This document shows, piece by piece, positions 3,266 through 58,671 of a stretch of 64,000 nt of DNA (position 1 is the stretch's first letter; every line of letters starts with the position of its first letter). This DNA comes from Tenacibaculum tangerinum (GTDB lineage: Bacteria; Bacteroidota; Bacteroidia; Flavobacteriales; Flavobacteriaceae), in the NCBI RefSeq assembly GCF_029853675.1, contig NZ_CP122539.1, positions 729,001-793,000 of the forward strand, given 5' to 3'. The notes beneath the pieces were generated by a model that ran no database searches, was not told where the DNA came from, and worked only from the letters and a program-made list of their open reading frames with translations. The translations under genes and the position numbers were made by a program.

Positions 3266-3599
3266 CGCAATTTTAAAAACTGAGATAGAGAACGCTTTTG
3301 TAAGCTATCCACCCCATCTTTAGAAAGAAGAGTAACTTTTCAGTTATTAGAAGATGCATACCTAAGAAAAACCTATTTCGAAAATTCTATGTAGGCTTAC
3401 CGAAAAATAGGATAGTTGTAAATTCGAATTTACTGACATTAATCAACCAAATAAAATCAATTTTAACCTGTAGACATATTTCAGGACTAGACTGTGGTGT
3501 TAACGGAGCATACCGTGATAGCTGCGACCCATTTTTGTGATATAAAAACCGTTCCTACTCTAAAAAGTAACTTTTATAACGTAAATAGTCGAGCTTATG
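3266..3599. other. Non-coding stretch before cassette island A
   Basis: About 330 bp without a convincing gene, terminator or RNA. It borders the accessory island on its left and may contain decayed sequence. Confidence 0.4.
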
Positions 3600-3842
3600 G
3601 GATTCCGTAAGATTGTATGGGGTTAATGTTTTAGATTCGCAAGAGTTGTAAGAACAACTCGATTTTTATAATTAATTAACAAATAGCAATAACTCTTTAA
3701 TAACTTTATTTTTTATAAAGCATTGGTTTTGATATATTTGATAGCGTATAATCATTGTTAAATTTTAGTTTATCCCATGTTTTTATCGGGATAACAAAAC
3801 TAAAGTTTGGTATAAAACGAGTTGGCAATAATAAGAAATAAA
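3600..3842 (+). promoter_or_regulatory. Leader of cassette island A (promoter plus first box)
   Basis: The stretch shares strong similarity with bases 49630-49866, which lead the second island. Conserved parts are the TATATTTG element (3733-3740, fits TAnnTTTG), a hairpin-forming TATCCC...GGGATA segment and the run ending in AAAACGAGTTGGCAA. The first recombination-type box, GTTGGCAATA, lies at 3821-3830. From the end of the -7 element to the GTT there are 80 bp in both islands. I infer a shared promoter and first attachment site, comparable in position to an integron attI/Pc region, but no integrase gene is present. Confidence 0.5.
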
Positions 3843-4877
3843 ATGAATGAAATGAAAATATTTATAGGCTCTTCATCAGAAAATAATGACACACTAGATG
3901 AAATAGCTCAAATGATAGAGAGTATTGGGCACGAACCTATTCCTTGGACTAAGCCAGGTCTTTTTTTAGCAGGTTCTTATACAGCTAATCGCCTTTTAGA
4001 AATAGCACAAGACGAAGTTGATGCTGCTATAATGCTATTTTCACCTGATGACAAGGTATGGTACCGAGGAAGTGAAAAATCCCAACCAAGAGACAATGTA
4101 TTATTTGAACACGGTTTATTTTCTGGTGTTTTGGGTTTAGATAAGGCTATAATTGTTATTAGCGGTAGTAAATCTAAAATTCCATCAGACTTAAATGGTT
4201 TATCATTCGTCAATTTCAATCGTAGAAGTAGTTCCAAAATTGAACTTAAGGCTTGGATAAAAAGTATAAACAAGCCTAAAATTAAATTTCAAGATAAAAA
4301 CATCAACACAGATAATATTGATTTTAAATATTTTATGGAATACCAAGAAGATATGAGAAAATCAGTATTAGATTTTATTTCTGAATTGTATTGGAATTAT
4401 GATTTAGAAGAGGGCGGTCTAGAAGAATATGTAATACTAGTATTAACGAAATTTATCAATCAATTTATAGGGATTAATGACGCTAGATTTACTTTAAGAC
4501 AATATAACCCTTCCACAGATTCAATGGAATCACTTATATCAACAAGGCAAGATGCAATCCCAGGCGCAATTCCAATGAATTTTAAAAATTTAATAACGGA
4601 ATCTGCTAAAAGAGACAAACCGTTAATTTACTCGGAAAATAAAGAATTTCATTATACTTCTAAAAATAAGAGTATTGACAAAGGTATATATCACGACTAT
4701 GTAACATATTGCTTGTTAGAAACCGAAAATAACGAACCAATGTTTAGTATTTGTCTTGATGTCAAAAATCCGATACCAATAAATAGGATGAAAGCTATGG
4801 TACATTCATTGATTTTTGAAATTATATGCATACCAATTATTGAAAAAATATTATTAGAAATTGACAAAACAGAATAA
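3843..4877 (+). CDS. TIR-like predicted nucleotide-binding protein with C-terminal GAF-like domain
   Basis: Residues from MKIFIGSSSE to about 125 match the TIR-like family found in CBASS/Pycsar effectors (PF10137 type). Visible motifs are IFIGSSSE, the EPIPW turn, LFSPDD, and RDNVLFEHGLFSG with the likely catalytic Glu. TIR enzymes of this kind cleave NAD+. The remaining 180 residues (RFTLRQYNP, then a block around DKPLIYSE and FSICLDVKNP) look like a GAF-type sensor, not the STING domain of Cap12; this is inference. I chose ATG 3843 (or 3852) over the upstream TTG at 3822 because that TTG lies inside the box GTTGGCAATA. The next gene starts 2 nt after its stop. An anti-phage abortive-infection effector is plausible; no cyclase gene is adjacent. 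Confidence 0.7.
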   Translation: MNEMKIFIGSSSENNDTLDEIAQMIESIGHEPIPWTKPGLFLAGSYTANRLLEIAQDEVDAAIMLFSPDDKVWYRGSEKSQPRDNVLFEHGLFSGVLGLDKAIIVISGSKSKIPSDLNGLSFVNFNRRSSSKIELKAWIKSINKPKIKFQDKNINTDNIDFKYFMEYQEDMRKSVLDFISELYWNYDLEEGGLEEYVILVLTKFINQFIGINDARFTLRQYNPSTDSMESLISTRQDAIPGAIPMNFKNLITESAKRDKPLIYSENKEFHYTSKNKSIDKGIYHDYVTYCLLETENNEPMFSICLDVKNPIPINRMKAMVHSLIFEIICIPIIEKILLEIDKTE

Positions 4878-4879
4878 TA

Positions 4880-5122
4880 ATGACAAGAATTAAAAAAAGA
4901 ATAGAACTCAGAAATTACACACTTCAACCCGAACGAGAGGAAAGAATATATGTTCGACCTAATTTTGGTGTTACTTTCAAACAAAAAGGGAAACCAAATA
5001 CTCGCTTTTTTAGGGGAGATGGAAACACTAAGTTATCTGAAATTGCAACAGTGATTAAAGATACCGACTGTACCATATCTCAACATAAAATCAATCAAAT
5101 AGTTGAAATTATTGAGAAGTAA
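4880..5122 (+). CDS. Small basic protein, partner of the TIR-like protein
   Basis: This 80-residue protein (MTRIKKRIELRN start) is rich in Lys, Arg and Glu and has no signal peptide or membrane segment. It begins 2 nt after the TIR-like gene and lies in the same unit, between box 3821-3830 and box 5128-5137, so the two move and are expressed together. I do not recognise the family. A cognate regulator, sensor or antitoxin is possible but not shown by sequence. Confidence 0.6.
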   Translation: MTRIKKRIELRNYTLQPEREERIYVRPNFGVTFKQKGKPNTRFFRGDGNTKLSEIATVIKDTDCTISQHKINQIVEIIEK

Positions 5123-5146
5123 ATTACTACTGCCAACATTGGTAGC

Positions 5147-5635
5147 TGATGCACAACCCCTAAATTTTAAAAAATGGAATTCATTTTAAAGCTATGTAAG
5201 GGTTGTATTTTGAACGAAGCCAAAATTTTAACTCCTTATTTTGCTTTTTTCTGAGCTTAAAACGAAATTTATTAAGTGATATCGTACGTTTTTTAACCAA
5301 AACACAAAAGCAACCGCTTTGGTCTCAGTTTTAGTAGTTGTACCCAAGAATTTTAATAGTTTTTTAATGTTGTATGCAGCCCCCGCCATGAGCATGCACT
5401 TATTCGCCCCACCGATACCCCTAACATTGACTTTTCTTAATGTGAGAGATCCAAAAACGGGTGCTACCGTGCTTTACCGTTTGGTTTTTATGTAGCCTCC
5501 CTGTAGACGGCTTACCTAGGCATGTTGCACTCATTCTGGGTGAGGTAATAGGTGATTTATATATACTAGTATAACATGGAAATCGCTCGTTCATTGGAAA
5601 GAATAAAATCGTATATTAGGGTTGTGCAACAGGCA
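5147..5635 (-). mobile_element. IS1182-like remnant, copy A
   Basis: About 490 bp bounded by inverted ends containing GCACAACCC (left 5151) and GGGTTGTGC (right 5619). The minus strand retains the degenerate 3' part of an IS1182-type transposase gene (the LMAGAAYNIKKLLKF segment), while the 5' part is deleted. The same element occurs at 8663, 10901, 55527, 57297 and 58690. It is now a non-autonomous, MITE-like unit. Confidence 0.6.
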
Positions 5636-5652
5636 CAATGGGTATAAAACAT

Positions 5653-6676
5653 AGCTAACGTGAGTTCGGGATAGTTTATCCTATTCTTTGTAAGTTATCG
5701 ATATTGATATTAGGTTTAGTTGGATAAAACGAATAAGCGATTAACCCTGCGACTAAATTTAAGATAAAGTTATCGAAGCTTCTGTGTCTTGTATGCTCTA
5801 TTTGACATACGTTTTTCAAAATATCATTTACACTTTCAATAACAGCCCTTTTTCTAAGCATAATTTTATCATAGATATGCATAAGAGTATTTTTCATATT
5901 CTTTCTAATTTTTGTAACCAAATGTATTCCATCTACAAAAAGCTGTTCAAACAGTTCTTTACCTACATACCCTCTGTCGGCAAATATTTTTCCGAACACA
6001 CGATTATGAAAGGCTTTATCTTTAAGTGGTTGCCTGTCATCTATATTACCTTGCGTAATTAAAAAGTCAACGATATCGCCCTTTTCATTGATAATAATAT
6101 GAAGTTTAAAACCAAAGAACCACCCCATGGTTCCTTTCCCTTTTTTTGCGGTGTTTTTAAAAACTTTGTTCTGCTTTTCTCTTTTATAATGACATACTTT
6201 AATAGTGGTAGAATCTAAAAAGGAGATCCCTGTACATTGACCTAAACAGTGCATTTGAAGAAACAGTATCATAGGCACTGAACAACGCTTTTTCAATTCA
6301 ACAAATCGGTTATAGGAAACTAAATCTGGAAATTCTTTTGACAAGTGTTTGCTAACATATTCGATATAAAAGTGTTTAAAACACCTAAAACCACTAAAAT
6401 GGAAAAGCACCATAATTGTGATTATTTCACTTTGGGTGAGTTTAGGCTTTCTTCGTCTAACTATCTTTGAACAGGTTTCTAAAGCATTTTTATCAATAAC
6501 TTGATTAATTTCGGTACAAAAATCATCAATTAAACAGAAAAATTCAGTAATTTTAAAATCAGAAATCATAGTGGAAAATTTAGTTATACAATTAAAAATC
6601 AGCACTTTAATTTACTAAATTTTTCGCTTTTTTTCGTGTAATTAAAAAACTTTTTTATCCCGAACTCACGTTAGCT
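5653..6676 (-). mobile_element. IS982-family insertion sequence
   Basis: A 1.0 kb element with perfect 21 bp terminal inverted repeats (5653-5673 and 6656-6676, starting AGCTAACGTGAGTTCGGG) and one transposase gene on the minus strand. TAGCTAA occurs at both edges (5652-5658, 6672-6678) and may be part of the target duplication, but it overlaps the palindromic end, so the exact border is ambiguous. It inserted next to remnant copy A. Confidence 0.85.
5676..6569 (-). CDS. IS982-family DDE transposase
   Basis: The protein has 297 residues from the MISDFKITEF start; an in-frame Met 12 codons upstream is less likely. The family core is clear: TGISFLDSTTIKVCH, then GKGTMGWFFGFKLH, FADRGYVG and KRAVIESVND supply the DDE acidic residues. 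Length is normal for IS982 and no frame break is seen, so the copy may be active. It catalyses cut-and-paste transposition of the element 5653-6676. Confidence 0.9.
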   Translation of the reverse strand: MISDFKITEFFCLIDDFCTEINQVIDKNALETCSKIVRRRKPKLTQSEIITIMVLFHFSGFRCFKHFYIEYVSKHLSKEFPDLVSYNRFVELKKRCSVPMILFLQMHCLGQCTGISFLDSTTIKVCHYKREKQNKVFKNTAKKGKGTMGWFFGFKLHIIINEKGDIVDFLITQGNIDDRQPLKDKAFHNRVFGKIFADRGYVGKELFEQLFVDGIHLVTKIRKNMKNTLMHIYDKIMLRKRAVIESVNDILKNVCQIEHTRHRSFDNFILNLVAGLIAYSFYPTKPNINIDNLQRIG

Positions 6677-6852
6677 AATAAATGCTTAACCGAAAGGTTT
6701 GTGTATTTTTAGAAAGTCCACCAAATATAAAATTTGGCGTTTACAAAAAATGATAAAAGCAAAATATTTATATTCGGCTTAGTACCAATCCGAAACGTAT
6801 CGCTTATCACCTGCCCTAAGTTTCTTATACGAGACGTTGGCAAACATTTAAA

Positions 6853-7758
6853 ATGAATAGAATAATAATCATATTTTTAGTAATTTTCACAAGCTGTTCA
6901 GATAAAAAAGAGTTTGAAAAGCCTATCCGAATTAGTCCGCCAATAATTGAATTTGACAAAGGGCGAATTCCGAAAATTGCGCTTAAAGAATACTATTTTC
7001 ACGAAAATGATAGTTCTAAATTAAATCTTCAAAAAATAACCAAATTTTACTCTGTCAATCAAATAGCATCCGAATCACATTTATTGACTTCTTCGAGTAC
7101 TGAAAAAGGAAGAAAGATTTTTTATGATTACAAAGACTCTTTATTGGTTCAAAAAAGAACTGTAAACGAAAAAAAAGATAGTACAAAAGTTGTCTACTCC
7201 TATAACAATAGAAATCAATTAATCAAACGAGAATATTTTACTTTTAAGAAAAGATTACGTCCAGAAATAATTGAAAAACAAAGAGAAAGCACAGATTGTA
7301 TAATTAGCGAGACAGATTATGAAGAAAATAGAAGTTGGGATAAAATAAGCGAAATTGACTTTTCCTATGATTCAATTGATCGAAAGACTCAATATTATGC
7401 ACCTAATTTACATTGGGATAATCAGAATAAATATAAATGGTTCTACGACGAAAAAGGGAATATTAAGATTAAAGAATCTTGGAATCATAATGAATTAATT
7501 TGGACAGAAAATTATTCTTATGAAAATAATGAATATAGTTTTACTCGAAATTGGAATAATGAGGACACTCAAAAGGAATTTAAATTTTTCGTCTACAAAA
7601 ATAAATTTGGACAAAAAATTAAAGAAGTTACTATGAAAAATGACTCAATTCAGCAGAGCAAAAAAACTTATGAATATTATAAAAACGGAATGATAAAAAG
7701 GAAAGTCGTTTATGGAGAAAGTGACAAACGACTGACAACATATATTTACAAAAAATAA
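6853..7758 (+). CDS. Lipoprotein with YD-like repeats
   Basis: This 301-residue protein starts with a short lipoprotein signal (MNRIIIIFLVIFTSC, lipid-carrying Cys at residue 15). The body has several irregular tyrosine-rich repeats of the type SYNNRNQLIKRE, FYDEKGNIKIKE and EYYKNGMIKRKV, recalling the YD/RHS repeat style of Bacteroidota lipoproteins. Membrane-anchored, probably periplasmic or surface exposed. It is the only gene of its cassette-like unit: box GTTGGCAAA lies 9 nt upstream and TTTGCCAAC 7 nt downstream. Function unknown. Confidence 0.65.
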   Translation: MNRIIIIFLVIFTSCSDKKEFEKPIRISPPIIEFDKGRIPKIALKEYYFHENDSSKLNLQKITKFYSVNQIASESHLLTSSSTEKGRKIFYDYKDSLLVQKRTVNEKKDSTKVVYSYNNRNQLIKREYFTFKKRLRPEIIEKQRESTDCIISETDYEENRSWDKISEIDFSYDSIDRKTQYYAPNLHWDNQNKYKWFYDEKGNIKIKESWNHNELIWTENYSYENNEYSFTRNWNNEDTQKEFKFFVYKNKFGQKIKEVTMKNDSIQQSKKTYEYYKNGMIKRKVVYGESDKRLTTYIYKK

Positions 7759-7764
7759 AAACGA

Positions 7765-7899
7765 TTTGCCAACACCATATATAATTTATTGCTAGTTCGA
7801 GCTTGCTTACTAAAATCCTCGCGGATTTTCTATTCGGTTTGTATTTGCTAAATTAGGTGCTTAAACACGCAACTAATCTTATACATCAACGTTGGCAAC
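7765..7899 (+). repeat. attC-like cassette junction A2 (uninterrupted)
   Basis: A 135 bp site: TTTGCCAAC (7765-7773) closes the lipoprotein unit and GTTGGCAAC (7891-7899) opens the next. Inner arms CCATATATAA and TTATACATC are roughly complementary, and a central hairpin AAAATCC-TCGC-GGATTTT (near 7812-7829) forms the tip. The two outer boxes are not from the same unit, as expected in an integrated cassette array. Confidence 0.55.
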
Positions 7900-7917
7900 A
7901 AGCTGAAAAAACCGAGA

Positions 7918-8319
7918 ATGGAAACAAAATCAATCGAACAATTAGAAAAAGATGTCTGGAAAAATCATTCCGAATTTCCTACTGATATGGTTGAGAAATG
8001 TTATCGTTATCGGAAAATAAGTATTGCAGAATTGACCAACGTACAAATAAGACTTCTGATTTCTCAAAAAATCGGAGTTGAATATTTAATCGGAATCGCA
8101 CTCGAAAAACTCGAGCGGAACATTTTAACAGAATGTGATTTTTATGAAGGAGATTTACTTATTGCAGTCTCAGGTTTACCGGCTGAATTTTGGAGTAAAA
8201 ACAAGACTGAATTCCTGACTTTTAAAAACCTTGTTAAGCAGAATTCAGAATTGATAAAAAACGAGCTTGGAGAGAAAAAACTTGACAAACTAATAAACCG
8301 AATTGAAAATGGGATATAA
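7918..8319 (+). CDS. CdiI-type contact-dependent inhibition immunity protein
   Basis: The 133-residue protein shows the order known from the CdiI_2-type immunity family: a start of SIEQLEKDVW, then CYRYRKISIAELT, RLLISQKIGVEYLIGIALEKLE and the conserved CDFYEGDLLIAV. These small cytosolic proteins bind and neutralise toxin tips delivered by neighbouring cells. No toxin gene is adjacent, so it would be an orphan immunity gene protecting against competitors. It shares its unit with the overlapping zinc-ribbon gene (11 nt overlap). Confidence 0.7.
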   Translation: METKSIEQLEKDVWKNHSEFPTDMVEKCYRYRKISIAELTNVQIRLLISQKIGVEYLIGIALEKLERNILTECDFYEGDLLIAVSGLPAEFWSKNKTEFLTFKNLVKQNSELIKNELGEKKLDKLINRIENGI

Positions 8320-8638
8320 AAACGTTTGTTTCGATTGCAGAAAGGCATTTAATCAAGGGACAGATTTGAAAAATATTCGTGAATCTAAATGTCCTGAATG
8401 TGGTATTTTAATGACTCAAGTCACTCATAGATTTAGACCACCAAAACAAAATGAAATTAAGAAATGGAATGTGGCTAAATTTTTAATGGAAAAAGGATTT
8501 TTATATGAACACGTTTATAAACGAATTTACCAAGTCAGAGGACTAACAGTTTTAGAAAATTATGCGACTTATCCAGAAAATATGAGAGATGCAAAAGAAT
8601 TTGTGGAGAAATATAAAGAACAAGCAGTTAATGAATAA
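8309..8638 (+). CDS. Zinc-ribbon protein
   Basis: This 109-residue protein has two Cys-x2-Cys knuckles (CFDC near residue 6 and CPEC near residue 30), which should bind one zinc. A basic helical tail follows. I chose ATG 8309 rather than the TTG at 8303. It overlaps the 3' end of the CdiI-type gene by 11 nt, so translation is probably coupled. Family unknown; the ribbon fits a nucleic-acid or protein contact. Confidence 0.6.
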   Translation: MGYKNVCFDCRKAFNQGTDLKNIRESKCPECGILMTQVTHRFRPPKQNEIKKWNVAKFLMEKGFLYEHVYKRIYQVRGLTVLENYATYPENMRDAKEFVEKYKEQAVNE

Positions 8639-8644
8639 AAGCCA

Positions 8645-9290
8645 GTTGCCAACACCGGTAGCTTATGCACAACCCCAAAATTTTAAAAAAAAATGGAATT
8701 CATTTTAAAGCTATGTAAGGGCTTTATTTAGAACGAAGCCAAAATTTTAACTCCCTTTTTTGCTTTTTTCTGAGCTTAAAACGAAATTTATTAAGTGATA
8801 TCGTACGTTTTAACCAAAACACAAAAGCAACCGCTTTGGCCTCAGTTTTAGTAGGTGTACCAAAGAATTTTAATAGTTTTTTAATGTTATAAGCCGCCCC
8901 AGCCATGAGCATGCACTTATTCGCCCCATTGATACCCCTAACATTAACTTTGCGCAAGCCCATATACTGTGTGAGGGTGCCAAAAACGGGTGCTACCGTG
9001 CTTTGCCGTTTGGCTTTCATATAGCGTCCCTGTCGACTGTTTATCCGAGCGATGTTGCTCATACTGGGTGGGGGTAATAGGTGAATGATATACACTAATA
9101 TAACATGAAAATCGCTCGTTTGTTGAAAAAAATAAAATCGTATATTGGAGTTGTGCAACAGGCACACTGGCTAAATCTCATTACGTCTGACCTTTCGCTC
9201 CGCTAAGGTCATGATGGCTGACCTGCGGTCAGCAGAGATTTTGCTATCTTTGAGTTTTACGTAACGAGGCTTAGCCTCACCGTTATCTAC
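8645..9290 (+). repeat. attC-like cassette junction A3, interrupted
   Basis: GTTGCCAAC (8645-8653) exactly matches, in reverse complement, the box opening the CdiI unit at 7891. GTTATCTAC (9282-9290) opens the next unit. The left arm CCGGTA is split by an IS1182-like remnant. To its right a large hairpin forms (AAATCTC...GAGATTT, 9173-9240, with inner TGACCT/AGGTCA and CTGACC/GGTCAG stems), followed by the palindrome GAGGCTTAGCCTC. Confidence 0.5.
8663..9163 (-). mobile_element. IS1182-like remnant, copy B
   Basis: About 500 bp with inverted ends around GCACAAC and GTTGTGC. The minus strand (about 9062-8724) keeps an open frame for the C-terminal transposase part: RINSRQGRYMKAKRQST, VAPVFGTLTQYMGLRKV and the LMAGAAYNIKKLLKF block, typical of IS1182-family ends. 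The N-terminal two thirds, including most catalytic residues, are missing. This is the best preserved of the six copies. Confidence 0.65.
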
Positions 9291-9300
9291 AAGCACAAAT

Positions 9301-9993
9301 ATGACAATAGAAATTAAAAAACCTCTCAGAATTGAAAAGATAAAAACTCTTTTAGAAAAAAATGAGAGAATACTATTTGTCTTGAATAATGGAAGTTTTA
9401 ATAGAGATTATATAGTAAAACTTCAAAAAGAACTTTCTAGCTACGTGGTTAGTGAAATTAATTGGATTAATAAACTAGTTATTGTTCCTAGTATATCCAC
9501 GAAGACTGTATTGGAAAATTTAAACAAGTTTTATCAATGTATTGAGCTATTTGATAAAACGGCTCATTCACTTATGAATTTGATGGCAGAAACATTTGAC
9601 ATTGACCTTAATAATTCAAGTGAGATATATGATTTAAAGAAAAACAGAAGTGAAAAGCAAAGAGGTCAAATAAATGATGAATGGAAATATTATTTTCACG
9701 GAAAAGGATGCTCATTTACAAATATAATCACTGAACAGTTTTTAGATGTCCAAATTATAAACGGACTCGAATTTGGAGAATTAGATGCTTATTATTTGTT
9801 GAAATTTATACAAACAACAGAGTCTTTAAAAGAGATGAGTTTAATTTTAAATGATGAATCAAATAATATGCAAAAAGTAATTGAGATATTGAGAATAAAT
9901 GATTATTTGATACAGTTATCGGACGAAAATACTGGCAGACTGATAATAAATCGGAATAAAAAGCCAGTAGATAACACTATATATAGCAAATAG
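9301..9993 (+). CDS. Hypothetical protein, possibly DUF6896 type
   Basis: This 230-residue soluble protein has no signal peptide. Near residues 127-165 it shows EWKYYFHGKGCSFTN, then a FGELDAYYLLKFI segment, a pattern I associate tentatively with DUF6896 immunity-like proteins. The ATG lies 10 nt after box GTTATCTAC (9282-9290). The matching box GTAGATAAC (9967-9975) falls inside the 3' end of the coding sequence, and the stop lies within the attC-like arm, as often happens with integron cassettes. Function unknown. Confidence 0.55.
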   Translation: MTIEIKKPLRIEKIKTLLEKNERILFVLNNGSFNRDYIVKLQKELSSYVVSEINWINKLVIVPSISTKTVLENLNKFYQCIELFDKTAHSLMNLMAETFDIDLNNSSEIYDLKKNRSEKQRGQINDEWKYYFHGKGCSFTNIITEQFLDVQIINGLEFGELDAYYLLKFIQTTESLKEMSLILNDESNNMQKVIEILRINDYLIQLSDENTGRLIINRNKKPVDNTIYSK

Positions 9994-10167
9994 GGCGATT
10001 AGTTATTAATCTAAAAGTTTTTGTCTATTTGCAAAGTCGCCAAATCTTTTGATTTGGTATTCAATGAGAAAAAATTAAAACAAAATGTAAAAGATTTGGC
10101 TTATGGCTAAACCGAAAATAATCTCTTGTTTTCTACCCTACTCGCCATATATTTAACGTTAGCAACA
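9967..10167 (+). repeat. attC-like cassette junction A4 (uninterrupted)
   Basis: A 201 bp site from GTAGATAAC (9967-9975, exact complement of the box at 9282) to GTTAGCAACA (10158-10167). Inner arms TATATATAGCAAATAGGGCGA and TACTCGCCATATATTTA pair imperfectly. The middle holds nested AAATCTTTTGATTTGG-type hairpins. Neither outer box fits GTTRRRY exactly. Confidence 0.5.
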
Positions 10168-10184
10168 ATTTAAGACAAACAACA

Positions 10185-10874
10185 TTGAAAAAATTTATAC
10201 TTATTATTCTAATCTCATTTTGTTATAAGACATATGGTCAAATAATAAATGACGAATCTTATTTGGATTTAGATTTTCTAAAATTCAAAACGGAACTTAT
10301 CAATTGCGTAATACAAAAAGACACTTTGCAACTAAAAAAGTTTTTAGCGGAAAGAGTTTATGAAAGCAAAGATACTTGTGGATATCCGGGTTGTACAAAA
10401 GAAGAATTGATAAACTACTATTTTACGGATTTGGCTGATGAGTCTTGGAACGATATGCTAACTTTATTGAGGTTTGGGTTTACTCGCAAAGTTGATGAAA
10501 ATACCGATTGGATTGTGCCGCACGAAAAAGTAGTTTTTCAAGCACCATCTTATTTAAAAAATGTGGATACGGAAAATGAACTTTTGATATTAGCAGAAAA
10601 TGTAAATATTCGAGAGAAACCAAGTTTAAATTCAGAAATTATTCGAACAACATCTTACGAGAAATTTAAATGTGATTGCAGTATTGTGACAATGACAAAA
10701 ACAACTTATCAAACTGTAGACGGAATAAACTGGATTGAAATAAAACTTGACGACAATAATGTAGGATATGTTGCTTCAAAGTTTACATCATACGAAGTGA
10801 TTAAAGAAATGACAATAGCAAAAGTCGAAGGAAAATGGAAAATTATATCTTGGTTTCAAGCACCAGGTTGCTGA
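10185..10874 (+). CDS. Secreted protein with SH3-type domain
   Basis: A TTG start at 10185 gives a signal peptide (MKKFILIILISFCYKTYG, cleavage before Q). The 229-residue protein has an N-terminal helical part with the pair CGYPGC. From about residue 141 it carries a bacterial SH3-like domain (ENVNIREKPSLNSEIIRTTS, then NWIEIKLDDNNVGYVASKF), which usually binds peptidoglycan or peptides in the periplasm. It is the only gene between the exactly matched boxes GTTAGCAACA (10158) and TGTTGCTAAC (10882). Last gene of island A. Confidence 0.65.
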   Translation: MKKFILIILISFCYKTYGQIINDESYLDLDFLKFKTELINCVIQKDTLQLKKFLAERVYESKDTCGYPGCTKEELINYYFTDLADESWNDMLTLLRFGFTRKVDENTDWIVPHEKVVFQAPSYLKNVDTENELLILAENVNIREKPSLNSEIIRTTSYEKFKCDCSIVTMTKTTYQTVDGINWIEIKLDDNNVGYVASKFTSYEVIKEMTIAKVEGKWKIISWFQAPGC

Positions 10875-10881
10875 TGAAAAC

Positions 10882-11022
10882 TGTTGCTAACAACGGTAGC
10901 TGATGCACAACCCCAAAAATTTAAAAAAATGGAATTCATTTTAACGCTATGTAAGGGCTTTATTTAGAACTAAAACAAAATTTTTAACTCCTGATTCTGT
11001 TCTTTTAGAAAGCTTAAATGAA
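10882..11022 (+). mobile_element. Terminal cassette box of island A with truncated IS1182-like remnant, copy C
   Basis: TGTTGCTAAC (10882-10891) closes the SH3 unit. After AACGGTAGC the left end of the IS1182-like element begins (10901) and matches the other copies for about 120 bp, to a TTTTAGAAAGCTTA segment near 11022. The right half of element and junction is missing and ordinary chromosome follows, so a deletion probably set the right border of the island. Confidence 0.5.
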
Positions 11023-49629: not shown

Positions 49630-49866
49630 TAGGTTTCTGGAATTCCGTAAGAATTTGTATACCCCTTGTAGTAAGTTCGTTGGAGTTATATAATTTATTA
49701 ACAAATAACAATATCGCGTTAATAACTTTGTTTTAGGTAAAGCTTTGGTTTTAATATATTTGATAACATATAGAAATGGCTAAACTTTACGATATCCCAT
49801 GTTTTTATCGGGATAACAAAACTAAAGTTTGGGATAAAACGAGTTGGCAACAATATCAAAAACACA
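49630..49866 (+). promoter_or_regulatory. Leader of cassette island B (promoter plus first box)
   Basis: Homologous to 3600-3842: both share AATTCCGTAAGA-like, TTAACAAATA(A/G)CAATA and TATATTTG (49755-49762). They also share the hairpin around ATCCCATGTTTTTATCGGGAT and the run into AAAACGAGTTGGCAA. The first box GTTGGCAAC is at 49843-49851, again 80 bp after the -7 element. I infer that it drives the first cassette gene. Confidence 0.5.
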
Positions 49867-50961
49867 ATGAGAATAATTTACAGTATTGTTTTCCTATTTT
49901 TTTTATTCAGTTGTAAGGAAAAAATTGAATTTCATCAAAATCTTGATTTGATTTGGAAAACTAAAGATGTAAATTGGAGCACAAGTTCATTAAAATTAGA
50001 TAGTGACTTTATCTATGGATACACAATGAATGATAGTGTGTTTAAATTAAACGTATCTACTGGAAAAATGTTATGGAAAAGATATTCACGTGGTAGTTAT
50101 GCTAATTTAAGTCCTGAAATTTACAAAGAAGGTATTTATTTTGGTGGAGCAGATGCATTAAAGGCTTTCAGCACAAATGGAGATTTACTTTGGTCAGAAT
50201 CCACAAGTTCAAAAACAATTGGACTAATAATTATTGATTCGATAATATTTAATACTAGATCTAGTAAAGGACTATTTGCAAATCATTTAAAAAATGGAAA
50301 AGAATTATGGAGTATTGAACCTGATTATCAATTGTTATCAACATCTAAACCTTCACTAAAAGATAGTCTATTGATTATTGGAAATTTTAATTACAAAAAG
50401 AATATTGGGAATCATTTAACTTGTATTAATCTTAACAAGAAGGATATTGAATGGGAAATTGTTAATAAAGGATATTTAAACAGTCAAGTAATTATTGATA
50501 ATAAAAGTGTGTTTTTCAATTCTGATTCATCATATCTAAAAGGGTTCACTTACAAAGCGGATTTAGTAACTGGTAAAATATTATGGAAGATTAGAACAGA
50601 TCCCGAAGTATTCTTAAAACCATTACTAAATAATTATAAACTTTATATAAATTCCTATGAAAATGGCATTATATGTTTAGACACTAAAAACGGAGAAATT
50701 ATTTGGAATACCAAAAATAAAAATTTAGATGCTGGAACTGACTTTATACTTCATAAAGAAATACTATACTTTGGAACACAGGACAGAAAATTTTTAGGAA
50801 TAAATGGAAAAGGCGAAATAGTATTTAAATCCGAATTTGAATATGGAATTGGTAATCCATTTATTTACAAAGGAGATATTTATGTTAACGACGGAAATGG
50901 AAGATTATTCAAAATAAAAAATACAGTTGCCAACATCGGGTATGCAACATTTGGCGATTAG
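49867..50961 (+). CDS. PQQ-like beta-propeller lipoprotein
   Basis: 364 residues with a lipobox (LFSC, Cys at about residue 16). The body consists of repeated blades of the PQQ-like type (LNVSTGKMLWKRYSRG, NGKELWSIEPD, ADLVTGKILWKIRTD, LDTKNGEIIWNTKNKN). The usual Ala-x-Asp-x3-Gly-x2-Leu-W pattern is only partly kept, so PQQ binding is unlikely; such propellers act as scaffolds. The matched closing box GTTGCCAAC (50926-50934) lies inside the reading frame and the stop falls in the attC-like arm, so the last 12 residues (VANIGYATFGD) come from the recombination site. Confidence 0.7.
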   Translation: MRIIYSIVFLFFLFSCKEKIEFHQNLDLIWKTKDVNWSTSSLKLDSDFIYGYTMNDSVFKLNVSTGKMLWKRYSRGSYANLSPEIYKEGIYFGGADALKAFSTNGDLLWSESTSSKTIGLIIIDSIIFNTRSSKGLFANHLKNGKELWSIEPDYQLLSTSKPSLKDSLLIIGNFNYKKNIGNHLTCINLNKKDIEWEIVNKGYLNSQVIIDNKSVFFNSDSSYLKGFTYKADLVTGKILWKIRTDPEVFLKPLLNNYKLYINSYENGIICLDTKNGEIIWNTKNKNLDAGTDFILHKEILYFGTQDRKFLGINGKGEIVFKSEFEYGIGNPFIYKGDIYVNDGNGRLFKIKNTVANIGYATFGD

Positions 50962-51060
50962 TGTTTTGCGTTCAGTTTTAGCTCGCATTTCGTTTTTCGC
51001 AACGGGAGACAGATATTCGCTCCGAAGAGCCAAACATTGCATACCCAAAACGTTAGGCAC
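50926..51060 (+). repeat. attC-like cassette junction B1 (intact, best example)
   Basis: A 135 bp site. R''-like GTTGCCAAC (50926-50934) matches the opening box at 49843 exactly. L''-like GGGTATGCAACATTTGGC (50938-50955) pairs with L'-like GCCAAACATTGCATACCC (51029-51046) at 16 of 18 positions. After AAAAC the next opening box GTTAGGCAC (51052-51060) follows. Spacer lengths (3 and 5 nt) and order R''-L''-L'-R' are those of integron attC sites, and GTTAGGC fits GTTRRRY. Confidence 0.65.
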
Positions 51061-51083
51061 AAGCAAAAAAAACCGAGAATAAA

Positions 51084-51719
51084 ATGGCAGTTTGGCAATA
51101 CCAATTGAATATCGTTCCAAAGAAAACTATACTCGAAAAATACGGAACTATTCCAAATGAACTTTTAATTAACGATGAAGGTTGGGAAAAATATTGGGAA
51201 AATATAGTTGATATTGAAAACTTACCTGAACCTGATTTTGAAGATGCAAATACCATAAAATGGTGGAAAAATATTAAAATCGAAATAAAAAAAACGACTG
51301 AACAGATTGACAAATTAGTTACGCGAGCAAATTGGGGACAAGATTCATTGGACTCTATAAATTGGAAAGGAAATTCGGAAATTAAAGAAGACAATGACTG
51401 TTTTTTATCTTTTGACCCAAAAACTCAAATTATAGAAGATTTTCATTTTCGAACAGATTTAAGGAAAAAAGAAAATATTACCATTTTTTTGAACGGAATG
51501 CTCAATTTATGTGAGCGAAATGATTTAATGGTTTTTAATACAAATGGAATTTTACTTGAGCCAAAATCCGAATTGATATTTGAAGACTTGAAAAAATCAA
51601 ACGCAGTAAAATTTTTGACAGACCCAGAAAAATTTATTGATAAGATTGCGGAAAAAGAAAATAATAGAAAACCAAAAAAAGATAGTTTTTGGTCGAAAAT
51701 AAAAGCACTTTTGGAATGA
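51084..51719 (+). CDS. Hypothetical soluble protein
   Basis: 211 residues without signal peptide (start MAVWQYQLNIVPKKTILEKY). It has many Trp and acidic residues (NDEGWEKYWENIVDIENL) and a basic C-terminus (RKPKKDSFWSKIKALLE). The family is not recognised; size and acidity resemble immunity-type proteins, but that is only an impression. It is the only gene between the exactly matched boxes GTTAGGCAC (51052) and GTGCCTAAC (51727). Confidence 0.6.
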   Translation: MAVWQYQLNIVPKKTILEKYGTIPNELLINDEGWEKYWENIVDIENLPEPDFEDANTIKWWKNIKIEIKKTTEQIDKLVTRANWGQDSLDSINWKGNSEIKEDNDCFLSFDPKTQIIEDFHFRTDLRKKENITIFLNGMLNLCERNDLMVFNTNGILLEPKSELIFEDLKKSNAVKFLTDPEKFIDKIAEKENNRKPKKDSFWSKIKALLE

Positions 51720-51764
51720 AAAGCCAGTGCCTAACAAAGAACTGAGGATAAAACCAAATAAAAT

Positions 51765-52739: not shown

Positions 52740-52744
52740 AACAA

Positions 52745-52910
52745 AAAAAATGATAAAGAGCCAATCTACAGAGAATTCAACAACTTAAAATCGAAGTCTA
52801 TTACTTCATAGAACTGAACTAATTTAACGTAGAAAAGAGAGGGGATTTTGAATGTTGACGAGATACAATTCTCACCGTATATAATAACCTTATTCCTCTC
52901 TTTGGTTCTT
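52745..52910 (-). ncRNA. Possible IS110 guide (bridge) RNA region
   Basis: Non-coding 5' part of the IS110-family element. On the plus strand AAAGAGAGGGGA (52833-52844) and TTCCTCTCTTT (52893-52903) form a stem. IS110 elements encode a bridge RNA upstream of the transposase that selects target and donor sites. Location and structure fit, but I cannot show a transcript, and the IS1111 subgroup has the RNA on the other side. Confidence 0.3.
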
Positions 52911-53095
52911 TTGATTTATATTTTATTTAGTACCTAAATTTAATAAAATGCTAACTTAAGCCGTATAAAATTAATTGCTAAATTAGTTCCTAACAAAAGG
53001 TCATTGCAGTTTTGCTAACTCTGATTTTCCTGCGGAAAATCCTCTCACACAAAACCGCAGCTATTTTTATACCAAACGTGCAACCAAAAGAAACA

Positions 53096-53695: not shown

Positions 53696-53703
53696 TAAAG
53701 GCA

Positions 53704-53768
53704 GCACACAACAAAACCTATACGCAATGCCCTTCGGGATACTGCGCATAGCCAAACCGTTGCCAGTA
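53704..53768 (+). repeat. Compact attC-like cassette junction B3 (65 bp)
   Basis: GCACACAAC, spacer AAAA, arm CCTATACGCAATGCCC, 3 nt loop TTC, arm GGGATACTGCGCATAGCC, spacer AAACC, box GTTGCCAGTA (53759-53768). The arms pair over 16 bp with three mismatches. This is the shortest and cleanest hairpin of the series. Confidence 0.6.
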
Positions 53769-53858
53769 ATGTAAAAACACCTCGTTAAAATTCAGCAGAT
53801 GAACAATAAACTGAACATTTTTTGTAACATTAAATAGAAATTGAACACTAATTGTTCA

Positions 53859-55529
53859 ATGATTAAAGATATAATATTTCAAATAAAATACTCGTTTTCT
53901 CAAATATCCTTCAATCGAAAAAGAGAGTTAAATCAAAGGTTAAAAGAATCATTTGGAAAACTGAAAGATGATTCCTTTGACTTTAATAACATAGAAAAAT
54001 ACTTCAGAAATAAAGATAATTCAAAAGCATATCAAGTATTATCAGACAAAACTTGTAACGACTTGGATTTTGATGATTTGTTTATGTTTCTTGACCGAAC
54101 TCATTCAAAAGTAGGTCAACAATACTTTTACAATAATCTTCGGACAATAAAAGTAAATGAAAAGCAAACCAAGCTAAACGAAGAAATAGTAACCGAATTA
54201 TCAAAAAATTTCAAATTAAGAATTTCGGTTCAAAAAAAGCTTGAAAAACTAAAACATAAAGATGCTTACTACATAACTACATTATTTCAAGAAGAACACA
54301 TTAATCAACCAAAATGGTTTTTTATTATAAAATTATTGTCGTTTACAAGTCTACTATCATTGATTTTTGGATTTTTTAATCCTATATTTTTCATAGTTCT
54401 ATTAGGCGTTTTCTGCGTGAATTTTGTGCTTCATTATTGGAACAAAAATAATTTAGTACAATATGTAAGTTCAATTCCGCAGCTTTTAAGACTTAATAAT
54501 ATCGCTTCTCATTTATTTACAAACCCATTATTTAAAAAAATAAATCCTGACTTGCCAAAGTCAATAAAATTAATAAATGAAGTTAAAAATAGAATGTCAT
54601 TTTTTCAACTCGAAGCTAAACTTCAAGGAGAATTTGAAATCATAGCTTGGTTTATATTTGAGATTTTTAAAACAATGTTTTTGCTTGAGCCTTTATTATT
54701 ATTTGGAGTTTTAAAAAGGTTAAATAAAAAAAGAGAAGAAATAGAAAACGTTTTTAAGTTTGTTGGACATATTGATATGCTAATTTCAATAGCGTCTTTA
54801 AGAAACGGACTTAAAACATTCTGTTTGCCAATTATTAATGATGGAGATAAAATCATTGTTGAAAATATCAGTCATCCTTTAATTTTTAATTGCACAACTA
54901 ATAGTATAAAAATATCTGAAAAATCCATACTTCTTACAGGCTCAAATATGTCTGGAAAAACTTCTTTTATTCGTGCAATTGGACTAAATGTAATAACTGG
55001 ATTTACAATTAATACTTGTTTTGCAAAATCAATGACTTTTCCTTTGTTAAAAGTGTTTTCGGCTATCCGAATAAGTGATGATTTAATGAACGACAAAAGT
55101 TATTATTTTGAAGAAGTATTAACCATTAAGGAAATGCTTAAAGAGAGCGCAAGCAAAAATAAAAACCTGTTTCTTTTAGATGAAATATTTAAAGGTACAA
55201 ATACAGTAGAGCGTATTTCTGCTGGAAAATCTGTTTTATCTGCTTTATCAAAGAATAATAATAAAATATTGGTTTCAACTCACGACATAGAATTAACCGA
55301 TATGCTTTCGGACGAATATGATCTGTACCATTTTAGTGAAACAGTAAATGACAAGAATGTAGGTTTTGATTACAAACTGAAAGTAGGAAAATTAAAAAAT
55401 AGAAACGCAATTAGAATACTTGAAATTAATGATTACCCAAAAGGGGTTGTGAAAGAAGCAATCGAAATAGCAAAAGAATTAGATAAAACATATTTAGCGA
55501 AAAACACTACTGGCAACAACGGTAGCTGA
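53859..55529 (+). CDS. Membrane-anchored MutS-like ATPase
   Basis: 556 residues from ATG 53859; a TTG 6 codons upstream is less likely. The N-terminal half carries MutS-like helical domains (FDDLFMFLDRTHSKVGQQYF) with two membrane segments at about 150-195. The C-terminal MutS ATPase has ILLTGSNMSGKTSFIRAIG (Walker A), a FEEVLTIKEML segment, LFLLDEIFKGTNTVER (Walker B) and VSTHDIEL. Mismatch-recognition domains are absent. Such short membrane MutS homologues are frequent in Flavobacteriia but lack a known role. The stop TGA is formed by the first bases of the IS1182-like remnant, so the last residues (TGNNGS) come from the recombination site. Boxes match exactly (53759, 55508). Confidence 0.75.
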   Translation: MIKDIIFQIKYSFSQISFNRKRELNQRLKESFGKLKDDSFDFNNIEKYFRNKDNSKAYQVLSDKTCNDLDFDDLFMFLDRTHSKVGQQYFYNNLRTIKVNEKQTKLNEEIVTELSKNFKLRISVQKKLEKLKHKDAYYITTLFQEEHINQPKWFFIIKLLSFTSLLSLIFGFFNPIFFIVLLGVFCVNFVLHYWNKNNLVQYVSSIPQLLRLNNIASHLFTNPLFKKINPDLPKSIKLINEVKNRMSFFQLEAKLQGEFEIIAWFIFEIFKTMFLLEPLLLFGVLKRLNKKREEIENVFKFVGHIDMLISIASLRNGLKTFCLPIINDGDKIIVENISHPLIFNCTTNSIKISEKSILLTGSNMSGKTSFIRAIGLNVITGFTINTCFAKSMTFPLLKVFSAIRISDDLMNDKSYYFEEVLTIKEMLKESASKNKNLFLLDEIFKGTNTVERISAGKSVLSALSKNNNKILVSTHDIELTDMLSDEYDLYHFSETVNDKNVGFDYKLKVGKLKNRNAIRILEINDYPKGVVKEAIEIAKELDKTYLAKNTTGNNGS

Positions 55530-56154
55530 TGCACAACCCCAAATTTCAAAAAAAGGAATTCATTTTAAAGCTATGTAAGGGCTTTATTTTGAACGAAGCC
55601 AAAACTTTAACACCTGATTTTCTTCTTTTAGAAAGCTTACAACAAAAGCTGTTAAGTAATTGGGTACATTTTTTAACCAAAACACAAAAGCAACCGCTTT
55701 GGCCTCAGTTTTAGTAGGTTTACCCAAGAATTTTAATAGTTTTTTAATGTTGTATGCAGCCCCTGCCATGAGCATGCACTTGTTCGCCCCATCGATACCA
55801 CTAACATTGACTTAGCCCAAGCCCATATACTGTGTGAAAGTTCCAAAAACGGGTTCTACCGTGCTTTGTCGTTTGGCTTTGATGTAACGTTCCTGTCGAC
55901 TGTTTACCTAGGCGATATTGCGCTCATACTGCGCCTAGTAATAGATAATTGACATACAATAATGTAACATGAAAATCGCTCGTTTATTGAAAAAAATAAA
56001 ATCGTATATTGGGGTTGTGCAACAGGCACATCGTGTAAAAATAATTCCTTGGTTCTAGCCTACTCGGAAAATCCTGGCGGATTTTCAGTTTGGTGTGTAA
56101 TTGCAAAGTTAAGTGTTAACCCACGCAACTACTCATAGCCGAGACGTTAGGCAA
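55508..56154 (+). repeat. attC-like cassette junction B4, interrupted
   Basis: TACTGGCAAC (55508-55517) is the exact reverse complement of GTTGCCAGTA (53759). The left arm AACGGTA is split by remnant copy D. After it, a hairpin GGAAAATCC-TGGC-GGATTTTC (56068-56089) and the right arm CATAGCCGAGAC lead to GTTAGGCAA (56146-56154), which fits GTTRRRY. Confidence 0.5.
55527..56028 (-). mobile_element. IS1182-like remnant, copy D
   Basis: About 500 bp with ends TGATGCACAACCCC and GGGGTTGTGCAACAGGCA. The minus strand keeps LMAGAAYNIKKLLKFLGKPT and the AVAFVFWLK segment of the transposase C-terminus. Same position and orientation in the junction as the other copies. Confidence 0.65.
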
Positions 56155-56174
56155 GATTTAAAAAACACCATCGA

Positions 56175-57272
56175 ATGAAAGAAAATTTATTGAAAATATC
56201 TATATTCCTACTCTTAACAATTTCATTTACAAGTTGTGAATCACAAAACAAAATTAAGAACCTTTTAGGAGTTGAAGTTTCAACTGACTCAATTAATACT
56301 TTCCTCAAATCGAGAATGGACTCATTGAATATTCCCGGACTTTCAATTGCAGTCATAAATGACAGTAAAGTAGTTTATCACAAAAATTTTGGATTTGCCA
56401 ACGTTGAAAAAAAGTTACCAGTTACCAACAAAACCATTTTCGAAGCTGCATCAATCTCAAAATCAGTATTTGCTTTTTTTGTAATGAAATTTGTTGAAGA
56501 AGGCAAATTGGATTTAGATAAACCCTTGTATGAATATTTACCATATGAAGATATAGCCAATGACGAAAGGTATAAGAAAATAACAGCACGTATGGTTTTA
56601 AGCCATAGGTCAGGATTTCCGAATTGGAGAGAAAATGAAGACGATAAAAAATTAAAAATAAAGTTTGACCCAGGAACAGCTTATGAATATTCTGGAGAAG
56701 GTTATCAATATCTCGCTATGGTTCTGAAAAAAATAGAAAATACGGATTGGAACGGTTTAGAAGCTCTTTTTCAAAAGAAAGTCGCAGAACCATTAAAAAT
56801 GGAACATACAGTATTTATACCAACATCTTATACAGAAAAAAATAAGGCAGAACCTTATAACAATCAAGGCGATTGGATTGATTTAAAAAATGATTATTGG
56901 TACAAAAAAGATAAAGGAAAATTCGTTGCACCTTCATCTATGCTGACAGAACCGATAGACTTTTCAAAATGGATGATTGGAATAATGAATAACAAAATTT
57001 TATCTAAAGAAAGTTATTCCGAATTGCTAAAACATCATTCAAAAATATCTACATCTTCAACTGGAATTAGTGTTTATTATGCTTTAGGTTTTTTAACAGC
57101 TGATAAAGTTTATAGTAACACCTATTTTCACGGAGGAAACAACGCTGGATTTACTTGCTCATATCTTATAGAAACAGAAAAAAAATGGGGATATATTCTT
57201 TTCACCAATTCAGAGTATGGAGAAAAACTCGGAGATGAAGTTTGGAATTATTTTGAAAAGGAGAGTGAATAA
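56175..57272 (+). CDS. Class-C beta-lactamase-type serine hydrolase, lipoprotein
   Basis: 365 residues with lipobox FTSC (Cys at about residue 20). Beta-lactamase/transpeptidase-like motifs: the Ser-x-x-Lys in FEAASISKSVFAFF (active Ser), Tyr-Ser-Gly in YEYSGEGYQYLAMV and HGGNNAGFTC as the third motif. FAVNVEKKLPVT-like and RMVLSHRSGFPNWRE segments are typical of the family (esterases, D-peptidases). True beta-lactam hydrolysis is not implied. Single gene between boxes GTTAGGCAA (56146) and TTGCCTAAC (57279), which match exactly. Confidence 0.85.
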   Translation: MKENLLKISIFLLLTISFTSCESQNKIKNLLGVEVSTDSINTFLKSRMDSLNIPGLSIAVINDSKVVYHKNFGFANVEKKLPVTNKTIFEAASISKSVFAFFVMKFVEEGKLDLDKPLYEYLPYEDIANDERYKKITARMVLSHRSGFPNWRENEDDKKLKIKFDPGTAYEYSGEGYQYLAMVLKKIENTDWNGLEALFQKKVAEPLKMEHTVFIPTSYTEKNKAEPYNNQGDWIDLKNDYWYKKDKGKFVAPSSMLTEPIDFSKWMIGIMNNKILSKESYSELLKHHSKISTSSTGISVYYALGFLTADKVYSNTYFHGGNNAGFTCSYLIETEKKWGYILFTNSEYGEKLGDEVWNYFEKESE

Positions 57273-57278
57273 AAAACG

Positions 57279-58018
57279 TTGCCTAACAACGGTAGCTGAT
57301 GCACAACTCCCAAATTTCAAAAAAATGGAATTCATTTTAAAGCTATGTAAGGGTTGTATTTAGAACGAAGCCAAAATTTTTAACTCCTTATTTTACTTTT
57401 TTTCTGAGCTTAAAACGAAATTTATTAAGTGACATCGTACGTTTTTTAACCAAAACACAAAAGCAACCGCTTTGGACTCAGTTTTAGTAGGTGTACCCAA
57501 GAATTTTAATAGTTTTTTAATGTTATAAGCCGCCCCAGCCATGAGCATGCACTTATTCGCCCCATCGATACCCCTAACATTAACTTTGCGCAAGCCCATA
57601 TACTGTGTAAGAGTTCCAAAAACAGGCTCCACAATTTAATCTGCGATAAAAGTTTTCTTGGGGTACATGCGCACTCAACTGAAAGAAAGTGAACAGTTTT
57701 TCTTAATACGTTTTTTGTCTTACATGATTAAATATACAGTTTATATATCTGAAAAACAATAACTTAATATAAAAAACCTCTTCCATATTGTAAAAAATAA
57801 ATCGTATATTGGGGTTGTGCAACAGACACAATGGCTATAGTCAATACGGGTTTTGGTGCTTAATCCGAAGTTTATAGCTTTTAACCAAGTCTGCCAAATC
57901 TTTTGATTTGGCTTTAAAAATGAAAAGATAAAACAAAATAAGAAGTTTTAGCTAAGTGCTTAATCGGAAATTCATTACTTTTAATTCCCGTACTAACCAT
58001 AACCGAGATGTTCTAGCC
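57279..58018 (+). repeat. attC-like cassette junction B5, interrupted
   Basis: TTGCCTAAC (57279-57287) closes the hydrolase unit. Arm AACGGTAGC is split by remnant copy E. To the right are AAATCTTTTGATTTGG-type hairpins and the right arm AACCATAACCGAGAT before box GTTCTAGCC (58010-58018). Bases 58019-58213 hold no gene I can support. Confidence 0.4.
57297..57829 (-). mobile_element. IS1182-like remnant, copy E
   Basis: About 530 bp with the same inverted ends. The minus strand (57632-57393) keeps EPVFGTLTQYMGLRKVNV and LMAGAAYNIKKLLKFLGTPT. Sequence between about 57630 and 57790 differs from the other copies, suggesting an independent internal deletion or recombination. Confidence 0.6.
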
Positions 58019-58213
58019 AATTCCTACCTTTATGGAAAAAATGAATAATTACTTTAGTTTAACGTTTAATTAGCTGAAAAAAGTAAAAAACACGCCTAAA
58101 AAACAGAAACATTAATGGCTGCTTTTCAGAACGATAAAAAAAGGTTGAGTCAGAATCTGAAGCAACCAAATGAATATTAAAGCATCTTATAGGTAACTTT
58201 AAAATGAATAACT

Positions 58214-58666: not shown

Positions 58667-58671
58667 AAACT

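Follow-up and report, generated by a model that had tools for sequence, protein, structure and literature searches.

What kind of element is formed by a row of co-directed genes in which every unit is enclosed by its own pair of complementary boxes? This question is raised by a 64,000-nt stretch of the Tenacibaculum tangerinum genome (the window; contig NZ_CP122539.1, positions 729,001 to 793,000), which contains two such rows, termed islands A and B. We conclude, with a probability of roughly 87%, that both are gene-cassette arrays of an integron-type system of Bacteroidota, served by a tyrosine recombinase that lacks the patch of the integron integrase IntI and, in our model, acting on a folded site. 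The cassette anatomy, the match of box tails within a unit, the covariation in the recombination site, the recombinase neighbourhood and the occurrence of the same cassettes in different genomes are observed directly.

Island A opens with an attI-like leader (3494..3820, + strand), which ends in TATAAAACGA at the junction with GTT. Five cassettes follow on the same strand. Cassette A1 (3821..5137; start box at 3821, GTTGGCAATA; end box at 5128, TACTGCCAAC) contains a CAP12-PCTIR TIR protein (3843-4877) and an 80-amino-acid open reading frame (ORF; 4880-5122). The recombination site behind it (5135..6838, + strand) is broken by two insertions, a transposase-remnant element of ~500 nt (about 5138-5645) and a further one with 22-bp inverted repeats and a DDE_Tnp_1_3 transposase (5652-6677), which we take to be IS982-like. 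Cassette A2 (6836..7773; boxes GTTGGCAAAC at 6836 and ATTTGCCAAC at 7764) encodes a 301-amino-acid protein (6853-7758) and is followed by an intact attC-like hairpin on the - strand (7771..7893; 94.4 bits, E 2.5e-17 with the covariance model R1 described below). Cassette A3 (7891..8653; boxes GTTGGCAACA at 7891 and AGTTGCCAAC at 8644) contains a CdiI_3 immunity-like protein (7918-8319) and a second ORF (8309-8638), and its site is split by a ~510-nt element (about 8657-9170). Cassette A4 (9282..9975; boxes GTTATCTACA at 9282 and AGTAGATAAC at 9966) encodes a DUF6896 protein (9301-9993). The long hairpin behind it (about 187 nt; 9973..10160, - strand), with the arms TATATATAGCAAATAGGGCG and CTACTCGCCATATATTT, is attC-like by eye and was missed by R1 in the window. 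Cassette A5 (10158..10891; boxes GTTAGCAACA at 10158 and TGTTGCTAAC at 10882) encodes an SH3_3 protein (10185-10874), and its site is cut by a further copy of the ~500-nt element.

The initial annotation had listed these box pairs and proposed non-canonical integron-like cassettes. The pairs are present, at positions that were right within one base, and match from A1 to A5 at 9, 9, 9, 9 and 10 of 10 nt, a sum of 46. Random GTT 10-mers of the window, given their best AAC partner in the same intervals, reached a mean sum of 35.2 and a maximum of 43 in 2000 draws. In a 9 x 9 cross table of both islands the own partner is best in seven of the nine rows and tied in two, the ties arising from the tail that A3 and B1 have in common; the table is biased because its end boxes were picked as the best in the interval. 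Most of the boxes had also been said to violate the GTTRRRY pattern, and indeed none of the five start boxes in island A fits it. The proposed class agrees with the anatomy as a whole: a hairpin site, unit-specific boxes, genes running head to tail in one direction, a recombinase upstream in relatives, and cassettes common to several contexts and genomes.

A less biased test uses hairpins found by R1, which was trained without the tail positions on 37 hairpins (112-135 nt) from loci L048-L064, themselves chosen by their boxes. The own-genome test set comprises 67 of 96 rows. Omitted were those of L048 (15 rows), 13 rows scoring below 34 bits and a truncated one (L189 8552-8656, 54.9 bits). Of the 67 sites, three fall in the overlap of L179 with L048 without being training sites. 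Between neighbouring non-training sites, at least six of the seven tail nucleotides are complementary in 24 of 37 pairs, as against 35 of 1332 non-neighbour pairs, and the observed sum was reached by none of 20000 shuffles. In other genomes, at six loci outside the training set, the tails match in 22 of 24 units, compared with 26 of 552 non-neighbour pairs. Throughout the relatives' arrays, a set that includes the training loci, 121 of 132 units match at 6-7 of 7. The shuffled-pairing check suggested in the initial annotation thus comes out in favour of unit-specific tails, since boxes of foreign units match worse than those of the same unit.

Bare complementary k-mers provide a weak test of the same property. 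The excess of GTT..AAC pairs over those of opposite polarity spans k=8-10 (164 vs 94 at k=10) and is gone at k=11 (20 vs 31) and k=12 (5 vs 11), as would follow if the complementarity ends at 10 nt. Chains of at least two exact-box units occur in 23 of 100 loci (3 of 100 for opposite polarity), and chains of at least three in 13 vs 2. Chains allowing one mismatch gave many false units outside arrays and are unreliable; the tests were therefore made on hairpin-model sites.

The two boxes flanking a single hairpin match at 6/7 in just two of the 67 sites, and the complementarity therefore belongs to the gene unit rather than to the hairpin. This bears on a rival explanation, in which the hairpins are transcription terminators or a dispersed palindrome of another transposase, of the repetitive extragenic palindromic (REP) type, and the complementary boxes are a by-product. 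The sites are indeed AT-rich intergenic palindromes dispersed over the genome. Against this explanation stand the private tails that match across the gene, the whole cassettes that recur in different contexts with ends at GTT, and the sites standing in order behind a recombinase gene, and we consider this origin very improbable.

The 37 sites between neighbouring units, aligned on the bottom strand, comprise an AAC-GTT pairing, an unpaired spacer and a 16-bp stem. In this training alignment 98.0% of the cells are paired and 13 of the 16 stem pairs show changes on both sides, a level reached by none of 500 shuffles. Two G.T pairs are retained in the stem: pair 7 is G.T in 31 of the 37 sites and pair 12 in 35, and on the top strand both would be A.C mismatches. 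An alignment of 77 non-training sites from the own genome and six others, which was fitted to the structure, has 95.5% of its cells paired; stem pair 12 is G.T in 73 of 76 and never Watson-Crick, and pair 7 is G.T in 61 of 77. Computed DNA folds are more stable for the bottom strand at 35 of 39 sites and, in the held-out set, at 39 of 46 (p 5e-7). An imperfect hairpin with the bottom strand favoured, as in attC, is thus present by computation.

Within the window R1 finds the intact site 7771-7893, which carries both G.T pairs in the model alignment, and five further sites. In the own genome, where 150 of 5058 candidates were scored, it finds 79 sites with E no higher than 0.1, all but one of them below 0.01. 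Hairpins occur in a common 123-nt, a long 187-nt and a short form of about 50-75 nt (window 53710-53761; L096 13952-14011). Rfam gave no match on the window at gathering scores.

Which enzyme could act on these sites? The own genome (3.61 Mb, one contig) contains, at 241.2-242.3 kb and thus about 490 kb from the window arrays, a tyrosine recombinase gene that is broken close to its catalytic end, as well as a recombinase remnant at 842.6 kb. Behind each lies a co-directed cassette, with the exact boxes GTTCTACGCA / TGCGTAGAAC at the former and the boxes GTTGTGGTGC / GCACTACAAC, 9/10 by eye, at the latter. The first open piece of the recombinase is matched in 38 of 39 genomes, many of the matches being ordinary Xer-type proteins. 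Full-length relatives, mostly of 340-400 amino acids, are found in many genomes of the same genus and, among the best 80 of 589 matches, in named Bacteroidota (Algibacter, Flavobacterium, Mesonia, Algoriphagus, Winogradskyella and Rufibacter). Of 21 Bacteroidota-type recombinase loci from named records, 13 contain R1 sites, and in 12 of these 13 every one of the 43 sites is a bottom-strand site downstream of the recombinase.

The initial annotation had suggested a search for a recombinase with the IntI patch. The answer is a clear negative: the patch is absent in all 34 associated recombinases. The interval from KGxKDR to PHxLRH measures 69-74 amino acids in every one of the 34 rows from the new family and 111 in eight of eight IntI, and the 42-amino-acid IntI insertion, present in all eight IntI, is absent from all 34. 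Four of four family members tested score 197-206 bits with the IntI model TIGR02249 (cut-off 265), compared with 402-488 for the eight IntI, and their alignment to the model splits at the place of the insertion. In a phylogenetic tree, IntI forms one clade (100/100) and 30 of the 34 family rows another (95/90); L089, L099, L100 and L104 fall outside the 30-row clade, and the branches between IntI and the new family have moderate support only. Because the IntI insertion is absent, the associated recombinase is not IntI and, judged by sequence, the window system is not a member of the IntI class.

One could still suppose that the arrays are ordinary IntI-integron cassettes with unusual attC sites, clusters of attC sites lacking integron integrases (CALINs) that were acquired from an IntI host, with the neighbouring recombinase as a bystander. 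The cassette logic is alike, and passages of PMC9024848 describe CALINs without an integrase as common. Against this origin, the IntI model gave 10 partial matches and none over the cut-off in the own genome, and R1 found no site in the five IntI loci searched. Patch-less recombinases stand directly upstream of the relatives' arrays, with an attI-like GTT 27-42 nt past the stop codon in 11 of 29 loci, and GTTRRRY fits just 9 of 84 boxes. We therefore regard an IntI-derived origin as very unlikely.

The catalytic core of the patch-less recombinase is closest to the XerA-type structures 5hxy and 4a8e, by profile and by fold, and four recombinases score 206-232 with NCBIfam NF040815 (cut-off 220). 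An extra N-terminal domain of ~75 amino acids is predicted to form five strands and two helices. The Pfam model HARP (PF07443) matches two of 20 such domains at E up to 10 (best E 5.8e-5), and one of 10 and two of 10 in other sets. A Foldseek search with the domain places XPB and the HARP domain of SMARCAL1 at ranks 2-7, the structural matches being weak. In 59 genomes the best of 21 PF07443 matches is the recombinase of G020 (22.5 bits, under the 25-bit gathering cut-off) and a second recombinase is that of G011; most others are not recombinases, and two of 14 control genomes also matched.

The putative insertion point can be located from both the recombinase loci and the leaders. The sequence TATAACNA, joined to GTT, occurs at most 250 nt behind the recombinase stop codon in 12 of 29 loci, where 0.03 would be expected from shuffles; the distance is 27-42 nt in 11 of the 12, and the remaining 17 loci have other sequences behind the stop. 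In addition, TANNTTTG, which we take to be the Bacteroidetes -7 motif and which may be part of a promoter reading into the cassettes, like Pc of integrons, lies no more than 120 nt past the stop codon in 10 of 26 loci, where shuffles would give 2.2. A 155-nt leader core ending in TATAAAACGA before GTT is present in eight copies in the own genome. Over 137-330 nt the copies have 81-95% identity, and the likeness ends at GTT, where eight different sequences begin. Four of the eight copies have, within 1.5 kb, an end box that matches at 9 or 10 of 10, and seven are followed by R1 sites in the right orientation within about 4 kb, the copy at 82.8 kb being the exception. Islands A and B each start with a leader copy. 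The copies stand at genome positions 732670, 778692, 855604, 1308930, 1402058, 1502920, 2967829(-) and 82830(-), some with 39-nt repeats upstream, and mostly head arrays away from the recombinase gene. They are probably dispersed attI-like platforms served in trans.

Cassettes are common to different arrays and genomes. Two arrays within one genome share a 1646-nt cassette that is 99.9% identical. Between genomes, a cassette from a genome of the same genus matches one of Seonamhaeicola (93.7%), and another cassette matches Winogradskyella (92.8%). One array (L058, G009) contains several identical copies of a 550-nt cassette at different places; the unit directly behind the recombinase there starts with this cassette's sequence. 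In six near-identical cassette pairs inspected by eye, the identity extends from GTT to the next GTT, the neighbours differ on at least one side, and the common segment includes the hairpin behind the end box. This last feature argues against each unit being a small transposon with private terminal inverted repeats, an idea suggested by the GTT...AAC repeats that bound each gene. The units have no common terminal sequence beyond GTT, neighbouring units are joined via one hairpin, and we judge a transposon origin of this type extremely improbable.

Homologues of the island A genes bear on another point of the initial annotation, which would have been contradicted by relatives lacking the paired boxes. 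Two homologues, both from genomes of the same genus, lie in such arrays: the A2 homologue at L194 (G052) is also in a cassette, with a different tail and its own exact box pair, and a homologue of the A1 gene at L197 has a 120-bit site directly upstream. To this extent the claim stands. A matching end box was not found within the 3.4-kb stretch at L197, and distant TIR homologues of the A1 gene at L196 (G092) and L198 (G086) have no R1 site in the stretches searched.

The longest ORF has at least 60 amino acids in 86 of the 121 matched-tail units, 83 running along the array and three against it. The cassette genes are diverse: 76 ORFs match 41 Pfam families, the 25 listed being single-match except one, and the families include GmrSD, TIR, Abi_C, Fic, superoxide dismutase and the integron-associated Cass2. 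PADLOC matched 80 models to cassette ORFs, many on the same protein.

In an even draw limited to Bacteroidota, the R1 hairpin (E 1e-4 or better) is present in 69 of 198 genomes and 46 of 102 genera. Among 99 genomes it occurs in 15 of the 23 that have the N-terminal domain and in 18 of the 76 without it (Fisher p 4e-4, or 8e-4 if the own genome is excluded). The recombinase family is also represented on Bacteroidota plasmids, and in Chryseobacterium and Pontibacter the genes behind the recombinase share its direction. On one Chryseobacterium plasmid R1 detects four sites (E 1.6e-8 to 4.5e-5) and on a Persicobacter plasmid one (E 5.7e-8), with weak matches only on the other two. Compared with opposite polarity, exact box pairs are in excess in Pontibacter (3 vs 0), where alone they stand in a row, and show no excess in Chryseobacterium (3 vs 5 and 1 vs 2) or Persicobacter (0 vs 3).

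Island B, absent from the initial annotation, is a second array at 49843-58685 with four matched units (9, 9, 10 and 9 of 10). Its attI-like leader (49683..49842, + strand) is the window's second leader copy, with 85% identity over about 160 nt, ending at GTT. All its cassettes are on the + strand and its hairpins on the - strand. Cassette B1 (49843..50934; ORF 49867-50961; boxes GTTGGCAACA / AGTTGCCAAC, 9/10) is followed by an attC-like hairpin (50932..51054; 38.8 bits, E 9.4e-06). Cassette B2 (51052..51735; ORF 51084-51719; boxes GTTAGGCACA / AGTGCCTAAC, 9/10) is parted from an attC-like hairpin (52959..53079; 53.3 bits, E 9.2e-09) by an inserted insertion sequence (IS) with a transposase ORF at 51765-52298, by eye IS110-like, a name that we assume for the window copy. 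A short attC-like hairpin (53710..53761; 27.4 bits, E 0.0022) precedes cassette B4 (53759..55517; boxes GTTGCCAGTA / TACTGGCAAC, exact), whose ORF (53841-55529) is MutS-like by eye. The next attC-like hairpin (56027..56148; 51.8 bits, E 1.8e-08) has its 5' end replaced by an inserted element. It is followed by cassette B5 (56146..57287; ORF 56175-57272; boxes GTTAGGCAAG / GTTGCCTAAC, 9/10) and a long attC-like hairpin at the end of the island (57827..58012; 43.8 bits, E 8.8e-07).

Several sites of both islands are interrupted directly behind the AAC box, by the ~500-nt element and the IS982-like and IS110-like elements. The ~500-nt element is found in the window at about 5138-5645, 8657-9170, 10895-10990, 55515-56030, 57288-57826 and 58685-58800, and also at L009 2280-2820; one copy contains a DDE_Tnp_1_6 remnant. 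In the copies inspected it lies directly behind a cassette AAC box, as if targeting these sites. IS110-type elements and, on one Chryseobacterium plasmid, a group II intron are present inside arrays, in the window (about 51740-52950), at L217 (12272-13273 and 14738-16054) and at L219 (10874-12229). Classical integrons have a parallel in IS1111-attC and group IIC-attC elements.

These features suggest the following mechanism. Each cassette consists of one or two genes and a hairpin recombination site, starting with GTT and a private 7-nt tail and ending with the tail's reverse complement, AAC and the hairpin. The recombinase encoded just upstream of the relatives' arrays would release cassettes in circular form, bringing the private tail and its complement together as the two halves of one folded site. 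Insertion would take place behind the attI-like TATAACNA, at its junction with GTT, either beside the recombinase gene or at a dispersed leader copy. The substrate is probably the folded bottom strand, in which an unpaired spacer separates a variable arm of 10 bp from a 16-bp arm, and the two fixed G.T pairs of the 16-bp arm may mark this strand. It is possible that the HARP-like N-terminal domain replaces the IntI insertion in recognising folded DNA.

Several observations weigh against reading the islands as arrays of this system. Recombination, with its circles, single-stranded substrate and catalysis, is inferred from sequence comparison, as is the role of the leaders and the N-terminal domain. 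The recombinase gene is broken in the own genome, and the window arrays stand alone. Of the 37 own-genome neighbour pairs, 13 fall short of a 6/7 match, probably owing to missed sites and insertions. In the 77-site alignment, pairs changed on both sides number 11, compared with 8.9 in shuffles, 12 of 500 being as high; this is one of five measures. The strand difference is partly an effect of composition, shuffled sequences accounting for -0.54 of -1.90 kcal/mol, about a quarter, and the window's intact site 7771-7893 folds equally on both strands (-15.2 and -15.5). L104 is the one locus that departs from the usual layout: its two sites (88-212 and 1562-1687) are on the other strand, upstream of a diverged recombinase. 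The N-terminal domain may be HARP-like on weak evidence, with scores below the Pfam cut-off and weak structural matches, and the 99 genomes include 18 with the hairpin and without the domain as well as eight with the domain and without the hairpin.

Beyond the window, the data raise the idea of an independent, phylum-wide second integron, in which a XerA-like recombinase would have gained a fork-binding, HARP-like domain in place of the IntI insertion and would recombine folded single-stranded sites, using a free arm sequence, a G.T-marked strand and several attI-like leaders in trans. We give this broader proposal even odds. The sections of PMC9668308 and PMC8138268 relevant here define the IntI class by an IntI-specific additional domain around patch III (PMC9668308) and call the insertion necessary or essential for integron recombination (PMC9668308, PMC8138268), while noting that it is not fully conserved in an integron-like subgroup (PMC8138268). 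According to passages of PMC9024848, complete integrons are very rare in Bacteroidota, with In0 only in an earlier study and then one complete integron in Salinibacter ruber. We found no description of such arrays in Bacteroidota in the open-access papers searched. If the system works as we propose, bacteria could have a second way to collect and shuffle genes, and the whole phylum would possess a large and hardly explored reservoir of mobile cassettes, defence genes among them. Searches based on IntI and canonical attC would be expected to miss these cassettes, and whether structure-specific cassette recombination arose once or twice would become testable.

The system can be compared with three known ones. 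The five strands and two helices predicted for the N-terminal domain resemble the HARP domain of SMARCAL1 and the N-terminal domain of XPB. The catalytic core is like that of XerA and simple tyrosine recombinases (5hxy, 4a8e), from which the protein differs in its extra ~75-amino-acid N-terminal domain and its association with cassette arrays. Compared with IntI integrons, the recombinase has no 42-amino-acid insertion, lies outside the IntI clade and carries the extra domain; its gene reads along the array, several leader copies occur per genome, and the 10-nt box has a free tail in place of the GTTRRRY pattern. The hairpin has two fixed bottom-strand G.T pairs where extrahelical bases are found in attC. 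In common with IntI integrons, there are cassettes with their own hairpin site, complementary unit boxes, a GTT junction and one gene direction, as well as an attI-like point beside a tyrosine recombinase gene and a bottom strand favoured by computation. As in those integrons, single cassettes are common to different genomes and carry diverse genes, including defence genes.

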